Part shown: piece after piece, positions 3,546 through 4,782 of the stretch
Position numbering within the stretch: the first letter of the stretch is position 1
How the letters are laid out: each line of letters opens with the position of its first letter
Virus record (IMG/VR): IMGVR_UViG_3300042292_000556
Location: 1-61,259 of that record
From: a virus
Reading direction: 5' to 3' (one strand)
Length of the DNA stretch: 61,259 bases
Made by a program: the position numbers and the translations under genes
Notes under the pieces: generated by a model
What the model saw: the letters and a program-made list of their open reading frames with translations, nothing else
What the model was told of the DNA's origin: nothing
Databases searched by the model: none

Positions 3546-3992
3546 ATGAACTTAAGAAACTTATTAAAAGAAATCAATGATAACGGTGGTGTATCATACA
3601 ATATTACAACAGGTGATTATAATCCTACTGATGGTTATATGGTATCATTACCCGGTTATGAAGCTACATTCACAAAAGAATATCTTAGTGAACAATTAAT
3701 AAAAGATTATATTCTTAAGAACATAGAACTTTTAGCAAGCAGCAATGATTATTATCTTGGTGGCTGGACTGAAAATGATTTAGTATATTTAGATATATCT
3801 GTAAAAGTTGAGAGCTTATTTAAAGCATGTTATTCAGGTATTGCTAACGATCAAAAAGCAATCTATGATAATGCAAATGCGGTTGCTATACACCTGCCTT
3901 CTCCTCAAAAGTCTGGCACGTTTACACAACAAGCAACATATAATAAACAAGCAGCAGATCGCGTTGTTGAAGGATATTTAGCAACGGCATAA
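3546..3992 (+). CDS. Conserved phage protein with YMVS / YLGGWT motifs
   Basis: This 148-residue protein resembles a family seen in many unrelated phages. It has an NDNGGVSYN start, an NPTDGYMVSLPGYE segment, and a NDYYLGGWTENDLVYLDIS segment around residues 75-95. A QKAIYDN region leads into the C-terminal part. The biochemical role of the family is not known to me. It is the last gene before the structured segment at 3993-4275. Confidence 0.7.
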   Translation: MNLRNLLKEINDNGGVSYNITTGDYNPTDGYMVSLPGYEATFTKEYLSEQLIKDYILKNIELLASSNDYYLGGWTENDLVYLDISVKVESLFKACYSGIANDQKAIYDNANAVAIHLPSPQKSGTFTQQATYNKQAADRVVEGYLATA

Positions 3993-4275
3993 TATACACG
4001 GTTGTCCTGCTGATCCGCGCGGTAAAGTAGTGTAGAGGCCGTGTTATCGTGGGAAACAGCACGTAATGCTGAATGAATGTTGGCCGTACTGGCGTTACGT
4101 GAAGATTACCAAGCTTGATCAGCTGGTTGTAACGGAATGGGGAATAAAGAAAATAACTGGTTCCCTGGTCATCAAAGAACTAAGTGCTGGGCTAAATGTA
4201 TACTGTCCATTTGACGAAATACCGGCAAGTCACGACCGACGGGTTTTGGGGTTCGATTCCCCTTTTAGTTCCAAA
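3993..4275 (+). ncRNA. Structured RNA candidate with tRNA-like 3' end
   Basis: This stretch is more GC-rich than its surroundings and holds several helices. ACACGG pairs with CCGTGT in the first 60 bases, CACGTAATGC with GCGTTACGTG in the middle, and GGGAA with TTCCC further on. It ends with a GGGG-TTCGATT-CCCC arm (4248-4262) and TTAGTTCCA, whose partner GAACTAA lies at 4177-4183. A T-arm plus acceptor-like stem is typical of tRNA or tmRNA 3' ends, but I could not fit a normal cloverleaf. No tmRNA tag peptide was found. An 81-codon frame at 4066-4311 crosses these helices and is probably not a gene. Confidence 0.5.
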
Positions 4276-4284
4276 TTAATAACA

Positions 4285-4326
4285 TACAAAACAAATACGA
4301 ATATTAATTGATAATAATAATGTAAC
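4285..4326 (+). promoter_or_regulatory. Early promoter-like element 6
   Basis: This copy of the 42-bp element starts just after the tRNA-like 3' end and precedes the gene at 4342 by 15 bases. Confidence 0.75.
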
Positions 4327-4341
4327 TAAAACAAATTAACT

Positions 4342-4782
4342 ATGAATATATTTTATTTAGACAGAGATCCTGTAAAAGCAGCAGAACAACATTATAATAA
4401 GCATGTTGTTAAAATGGTATTAGAAGCAGCACAATTACTTTGTACAGCGCATCATTTATCCGGTAATCCAGAGGATGTACCATATAAGAAAACACACATG
4501 AATCATCCATCAGCAGTATGGGTACGATCATCACGAGCTAATTACTTATGGTGTTATGAATATATGTTAGCGTTAGGTGCAGAATATACACGTCGTTATA
4601 ACAAACATCATTTAACTATTGCAAAGTGTCGCGGTGTATTATCTAAAGTACCTCATGCTATACATGCTGAAGATTTTTGCGATCCACCACAATGTATGCC
4701 AGACGAATACAAAATGGCCGATGCAGTTGACGGTTATAAAAAATATTACGAAATTGGTAAAGCTCACTTAAAAGATAAATAA
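4342..4782 (+). CDS. Pyrimidine-dimer-glycosylase-like phage protein
   Basis: The opening MNIFYLDRDP, the HYNKHVVKMVLEAAQLL helix, the NHPSAVWVR segment and the PQCMPDEYK segment match a conserved phage family. That family is often placed near T4 endonuclease V (pyrimidine dimer DNA glycosylase). If so, it would excise UV-damaged bases from phage DNA. At 146 residues it is close to the T4 enzyme's length. The assignment rests on remembered family patterns, and the catalytic N-terminal Thr of T4 endonuclease V is not obvious here. The family label is therefore firmer than the activity. Confidence 0.6.
   Translation: MNIFYLDRDPVKAAEQHYNKHVVKMVLEAAQLLCTAHHLSGNPEDVPYKKTHMNHPSAVWVRSSRANYLWCYEYMLALGAEYTRRYNKHHLTIAKCRGVLSKVPHAIHAEDFCDPPQCMPDEYKMADAVDGYKKYYEIGKAHLKDK

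Follow-up and report, generated by a model that had tools for sequence, protein, structure and literature searches.

The tRNA region of phage T4 encodes two RNAs, RNA C and RNA D. Both are late RNAs that have been checked by Northern blot and have no known role (2010 review, 2022 omics study), and RNA C (rnaC, species 1 RNA) has been reported as expressed (PMC9697503). The fold of rnaC comprises an acceptor stem, a large arm, a hairpin and a T-arm, and among five T4-like phages the acceptor changes from A-U to G-C and the T stem changes in pairs. tRNA-like structures are also found at the 3' ends of plant RNA viruses, an example being the histidine-accepting one of TMV, and in MALAT1, a noncoding RNA with the tRNA-like element mascRNA on its 3' side. 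Among phage RNAs, GOLLD and ROOL often lie near tRNA genes. They are large structured RNAs (PMC12286853).

The locus described here lies in a virus record of 61,259 bases, from an uncultured phage, that is called the window below. Among the hits listed for its portal protein, the nearest come from Flavobacterium and Cellulophaga phages, at 41-52% identity; the host type is Flavobacterium-type bacteria, the phage being related to phages of such hosts. The genome also encodes a primase-helicase, a thymidylate synthase, a ribonucleotide reductase, GroEL and a sigma-factor. Between an ORF at 3546-3992 and the phrog_624 gene at 4342-4782 lies a segment with a GC content of about 44%, as compared with roughly 31% for the genome. 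It is made up of four modules (3996-4271), all on the + strand and arranged 5' to 3' as M0, M1, M3 and M4. A first-pass annotation had described a structured segment of 285 nt (3993-4275) with a tRNA-like 3' end in a gap without a credible gene; it had missed that the segment is composed of several modules.

The segment at 3996-4271 is noncoding. The frame at 4066-4311, which might have been a conserved protein, is open in the window only and carries stops in each of the nine relatives examined, so the protein reading failed. Across the M3-M4 span all three frames carry stops in nine relatives, which bears out the view of a gap without a credible gene, and the spacing between M3 and the T-arm differs among relatives by lengths not divisible by three. 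There is hardly any doubt that this noncoding locus is structured and conserved and has a tRNA-like part, and the structured segment noticed at first is confirmed overall by its conserved modules, its covariation and its freedom from genes.

Relatives were collected as 31 loci through the two flanking genes, with additional ones found through DNA patterns. Most of the closer relatives likewise have tRNA genes or noncoding RNA in this slot, with differing content; the slot upstream of the phrog_624 gene is occupied by ordinary tRNAs in L018 and L007. Modules are inserted and exchanged at the locus between close relatives. A further module, M2 (GACTCAGG.AGCAGTGAGTTCGTTAAATAAGAACTGTT), is found at the same place in L003, L005, L080, L082 and L084, and other phages gain or lose modules. 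A blastn search of the window segment against named phages gave no match. No host or prophage copy was found, as a scan of bacterial genomes with the M3 pattern returned four matches, all inside genes and all attributable to chance. Downstream of M4, the stretch up to the phrog_624 gene (4274-4341; ACAAAACAAAYACGAATATTAATTGATAATAATAATGTAAC) shows strong conservation among relatives and is found again ahead of other early genes; it is probably a promoter or leader.

Folding energy is of little help for this locus. The RNAfold minimum free energy had a z score of +0.34 relative to dinucleotide shuffles, 133 of 200 of which folded equally well, and energy-based folding was dropped as structure evidence. 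Since the stability of the segment is no greater than that of the shuffles, its stems need comparative evidence. The several long stems reported in the first-pass annotation are upheld by covariation in 15-16 relatives, but not by energy alone.

M0 (3996-4044) is formed by a stem of ACACGG (3996-4001) and CCGTGT (4039-4044) that encloses a variable hairpin. The stem changes in pairs, to ACACAA/TTGTGT in L081 and ACACGTT/AACGTGT in L078, and L084 carries a second M0 copy in tandem. M1 (4048-4074) is a hairpin, CGTG-GGAAACAG-CACG, followed by the conserved TAATGCTGAAT. Its loop is invariant and its stem is compensated, with CGTG/CACG in the window replaced by CGCA/TGCG in L084, CGCG/CGCG in L197 and CGTG/TACG in L085.

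M3 (4079-4173) is a three-way junction RNA with a probable pseudoknot. Its stems are P1 (4079-4084 with 4168-4173), P2 (4093-4098 with 4129-4134) and the P3 hairpin, whose loop reads TAAAGAA...CTGG; the pseudoknot would pair CTGG at 4089-4092 with the 3' end of the P3 loop. In a sequence-only alignment of 16 copies, 90.7% of cells were paired under P1, P2, P3 and the CTGG/CCGG pseudoknot. Two-sided compensated cells numbered 39 as compared with 12.8 in shuffled alignments (0 of 500), and the covariation score was 0.415 as compared with 0.260 (0 of 500), falling to 0.12 or less when the partners were slid. P2 was paired in 100% of cells, with four covarying pairs and exchanges among GC, GU, CG and AU. 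The pseudoknot pairs were also kept in 100% of cells, by one-sided changes only, and for this reason we regard the pseudoknot as no more than probable. RNAalifold placed CTGG/CCGG in a nested pairing, which we replaced by the pseudoknot because the latter lets the covarying P3 hairpin form. Four records were retrieved with an M4 pattern not overlapping M3; in three of them a covariance model of M3 built from 13 copies (R1) detected M3, scoring 60-69 bits, and the copy newly found in L198 shows new compensated bases. An R1 match in phage PM2 at 13 bits was rejected, as was an M3 pattern lacking the P2 anchor, which returned mostly unrelated coding matches in viral contigs. Genomes having M3 carry one copy each; in L082 P1 is partly broken.

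M4 (4177-4271) is the tRNA-like part of the locus, with G-1 at 4177, a body at 4178-4270 and C73 at 4271. It is present in 15 copies in related phages, one per genome. The acceptor 5' strand AACTAAG (4178-4184) pairs at all seven positions, with one G-U, with the 3' strand TTTAGTT (4264-4270, followed by C73), giving a score of 13 out of 14; both strands and the G-1/C73 pair are invariant in the 15 copies. The 7-bp acceptor is stacked without a gap on a 5-bp T-arm with a TTC(A/G)A loop (TGGGG-TTCGATT-CCCCT, 4247-4263). Every copy retains the loop and the four inner T-arm pairs; at the outermost position the window has U-U, whereas six copies (L084, L085, L195-L198) have A-U or G-U. The T-arm and its upstream acceptor partner, both suspected at first sight, are thus present, but the acceptor does not end in an encoded CCA as then proposed. 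After C73 the next bases are CA or CT, and the three bases read CCT in five of the 15 copies; an encoded CCA was rejected as the 3' end and lies outside the conserved unit.

The interior of M4 departs from the tRNA plan. No D-arm and no anticodon arm with a 7-nt loop were found; the space is taken by arm A (4184-4233), which replaces both, and by hairpin B (GACC-GACG-GGTT, 4234-4245), which sits at the position of the long variable arm of a tRNA. Because a variable arm and a small hairpin stand where a tRNA has its D and anticodon arms, M4 is without an anticodon, and the anticodon arm is absent from all 15 copies; the shortest (L197, 63 nt) has no room for one. Arm A, closed at its base by 4185-4186 with 4231-4232, varies strongly in length. 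Its pair 12-57 appears as GC, AU, UA or GU and is unpaired in four of the 15 copies, and the single arm A difference between L081 (GTA...TAC) and L195 (GTG...CAC) is a G-C/A-U exchange. Hairpin B, shared by all copies as RACC-GACG-GGUU, is paired in 98.3% of cells with one-sided changes only (A-U/G-U, C-G/U-G). As the acceptor and T stem are invariant, their pairing has no covariation support inside the family, and these two stems rest on conservation and on the group-wide result given below. M4 model matches in elemoA, which fall in a terminator hairpin, were rejected as chance.

Known families do not account for the segment. ARAGORN called no tRNA or tmRNA in the window segment and none for M4, so that the clean standard tRNA call that could have explained everything was not made. 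No Rfam family reached its gathering score in the segment, and the M4 family is absent from Rfam 15. The best sub-threshold match of the segment was tRNA-Sec at 15.4 bits against a cut-off of 47, and the sole tmRNA signal, confined to 15 nt of the T-arm, reached 13.3 bits where the gathering score is 47. Such weak signals, together with a TTCGATT T-loop and a layout lacking a D-arm that recall the tRNA half of tmRNA, are what one could cite for a divergent tmRNA, or for a tRNA whose insert is spliced out to restore an anticodon. Both signals, however, are far below the gathering scores, no conserved reading frame exists and no tag frame survives in relatives, and the 63-nt copy in L197 cannot fit an anticodon arm. 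Splicing of an interior insert was rejected, with RtcB ligase not found in 21 records and no Rfam group I or II intron model matching. We therefore regard these two readings as very improbable. The description as an unusual or interrupted tRNA holds for the acceptor and T-arm, which are tRNA-like, but not for the remainder, which lacks an anticodon arm (0 of 15) and is replaced rather than interrupted. Of the options offered in the first-pass annotation, the right one was a structured RNA of a new kind, with a 3' end resembling that of a tRNA.

A T-arm plus an acceptor 3' strand commonly serves as an attachment core, and the tRNA 3' half of M4 could on this general ground be an integration site, an attP core with a captured tRNA 3' end. 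We give this reading almost no credence. The tyrosine integrase domain Phage_integrase (PF00589) was absent from ten records, the window and nine relatives, in a search that covered this domain alone and detected the control in 14 of 14 cases; the first-pass annotation had likewise seen no integrase. The conserved unit, moreover, takes in the 5' acceptor strand and the interior arms, and in relatives the position of the element among the phage genes is fixed.

The phage group to which the window belongs has several tRNA-shaped RNAs that do not decode, M4 among them. In a survey of 23 records (22 related phage records and the window) there were 61 T-arm-like stretches, 32 of which had an acceptor partner with a score of at least 13 within 300 nt, as compared with 7.0 expected from random 7-mers. 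ARAGORN calls only about a third of the group, the remainder having restructured interiors. Among the uncalled RNAs, acceptors pair at seven of seven positions despite sequence change (AGTCAGG/CCTGACT, GATCGAG/CTCGATC, GGTCAAG/CTTGACC, GATTGAG/CTCAATC, AACTAAG/CTTAGTT and AGTTAAG/CTTAACT). Several members begin with an ordinary tRNA-Leu D-arm and then depart from the tRNA plan. The open-access literature yielded no account of such RNAs from Flavobacterium phages.

Several members of the group are worth recording individually. At L166 9157-9287 (-), L184 1306-1431 (+) and L123 2939-3097 (-) there are tRNA-Leu-like RNAs whose D-loop contains an extra hairpin; the stem of this hairpin differs in sequence among the three but is paired in each. 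L150 18952-19486 (record G028) holds a row of three tRNA-shaped RNAs, 124, 92 and 176 nt long, with 7/7 acceptors, perfect or near-perfect T-arms and no ARAGORN call. RNAs with an acceptor, a T-arm and an aberrant interior are also found at about L121 1495-1600 (-) in a more distant relative (record G018) and at L202 1719-1805 in a crAss-like Cellulophaga phage. ARAGORN reports "tRNA-???" with a six-base anticodon loop at L085 7719-7791 (-) and L145 6155-6227 (-).

Other RNA-like elements were seen in the same phages and in phage tRNA clusters. A noncoding element of roughly 330 nt at L005 3597-3935, with conserved blocks TGTTGTTCCCTTGAGAAAGGAATG...CAACACAAATGAGTTCTCAGCAAGTAG...AGAGGGTGCTAA, occurs also in L009, L084, L193 and Cellulophaga phi14:2 (L202, about 1230-1700). 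One of its hairpins resembles part of T4 RNA D (GATGGTTCCCTGAGTAAGGAATTG...CATCACAGCAG), and the element is a possible RNA D relative. A conserved, unannotated RNA-like module, AACGAGTACGCTNTTAGG...AAGGGTTAATAGTA...AGTAACCCTGAAACACCCAAAGTT, lies within tRNA clusters of T4-like, T5-like and Flavobacterium phages: L085 (4795-4872 region, reverse-complement view), L199 1501-1570 (Pectobacterium phage PM2), L200 1501-1556 (Proteus phage Stubb) and L201 1501-1578 (Flavobacterium phage immuto). The PM2 copy matches 35 phage records; the module has no Rfam family and is absent from the window.

Could M4 be a decayed tRNA gene, a pseudogene with a degraded interior left in a recombination-prone tRNA cluster? 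Its missing anticodon, the swapping and insertion of modules among close relatives and the ordinary tRNAs in the same slot of two relatives would fit. Conservation largely refutes this explanation, and we consider it improbable. The 43-nt core of acceptor and T-arm is 95-100% identical to the window (the core pattern does not match L197) across strongly diverged phages, in the more distant of which the neighbouring gene is 48-62% identical at third codon positions, with protein identity down to 58-61%. The interiors covary, the D-loop insert hairpins of G005, G007 and G013 stay paired with different bases, and an intact acceptor and T-arm in 15 copies is not expected from decay.

We lean, by a modest degree, towards M4 being a stable tRNA mimic that host tRNA enzymes process and that defines the 3' end of the leader RNA. 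The stacked acceptor/T half of a tRNA is the part recognised by RNase P and in 3'-end trimming and CCA addition. With its acceptor and T stems stacked as in tRNA, M4 would be recognised by host enzymes that read this half. RNase P would cut at the 5' end of M4 (4177/4178), 3'-end trimming and CCA addition would follow, and M4 would then accumulate as a stable small RNA by analogy with T4 RNA C. Such a cut, 1-5 nt past M3, would release the leader M0-M3 with a defined 3' end (for 4177/4178, M3 ends 2-4 nt upstream). M3 lies directly 5' either of M4 or of a different, tRNA-Leu-like RNA, and in both cases the gap is 1-5 nt, which would be the outcome if the 3' end of M3 were set by the tRNA-like part. 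The same spacing could mean that M4 is purely a processing signal, comparable to mascRNA for MALAT1, making the 3' end of a leader that is itself the functional molecule; the half of M4 read by tRNA-processing enzymes is indeed where most of its conservation lies. However, M4 occurs without M3 in L081 and L195, and the conserved plan of arm A and hairpin B would be needless for a bare processing signal, so this reading appears unlikely. From the absence of M3 in these two loci, and from another RNA that intervenes between M3 and the tRNA-like part in L012, it follows that M3 and M4 are not obligate partners.

As a stable tRNA mimic, M4 would be unable to decode, lacking an anticodon arm. The G-1/C73 end pair is a feature of bacterial tRNA-His and the main histidine identity element, and because this pair is invariant, M4 may by analogy be charged with histidine. 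Most likely, we infer, M4 engages a tRNA-binding host factor as a decoy or competitor, possibly against a defence nuclease. Phage tRNAs counter tRNA-cutting defences (PMC13096335), and this, together with the fast module exchange in an accessory region, makes counter-defence our leading guess for M4, rather than a result. Extended to fast-evolving modular tRNA mimics in phages of Flavobacterium-type hosts and in T4-like phages (RNA C), the proposal that they act as counter-defence decoys or competitors against tRNA-binding or tRNA-cutting host factors, some of them charged yet non-decoding, is speculative, and we would not expect it to hold in this general form.

Compared with known systems, M4 shares with tRNA the 7-bp acceptor, the T-arm with a TTCGATT loop and the tRNA-His-type G-1/C73 pair, but is without a D-arm, an anticodon arm, a conserved encoded CCA and an ARAGORN or Rfam call; among tRNA types, tRNA-Leu is nearest to the sister RNAs of the same phages. 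The plant viral structures likewise keep the acceptor and T parts, replace the rest and can have a histidine-type end, but they terminate RNA genomes, whereas M4 is a predicted DNA-phage transcript and a candidate for charging. The mascRNA is similar in being a tRNA-like element, open to cutting by RNase P, that lies 3' of a noncoding RNA, although it is eukaryotic and unrelated in sequence, and cleavage at M4 is a prediction. The Rfam covariance models of GOLLD and ROOL had no match in the window or its relatives, and the segment is far smaller than these RNAs and built of exchangeable modules. The closest likeness is to T4 RNA C, which has the same order of acceptor, large arm, hairpin, T-arm and acceptor and likewise sits in a phage tRNA slot. 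In RNA C the acceptor is interrupted at its centre by a UU/UU mismatch, unlike that of M4, and the arm lengths also differ; M4 has the G-1/C73 pair and a structured leader (M0-M3), and host phylum and phage family are different. An rnaC search matched T4-like phages only, among the organisms listed, with no detectable similarity to M4, and the model R2, run against the T4 region as a homology test of M4 and rnaC, found no match there. Because sequence homology is absent, M4 is like RNA C in plan and is not established as RNA C. M4-type RNAs are a new, unnamed family of a known but unexplained kind. Rfam and the tRNA finders in present use overlook this family of structured RNAs, which lies in the tRNA clusters of phages. 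With a second, unrelated phage group showing the RNA C plan in many natural variants, there is a comparative handle on which parts never change (acceptor, T-arm and end pair) and which are swapped, and the role of a non-decoding phage tRNA becomes testable by processing, charging and pull-down assays.
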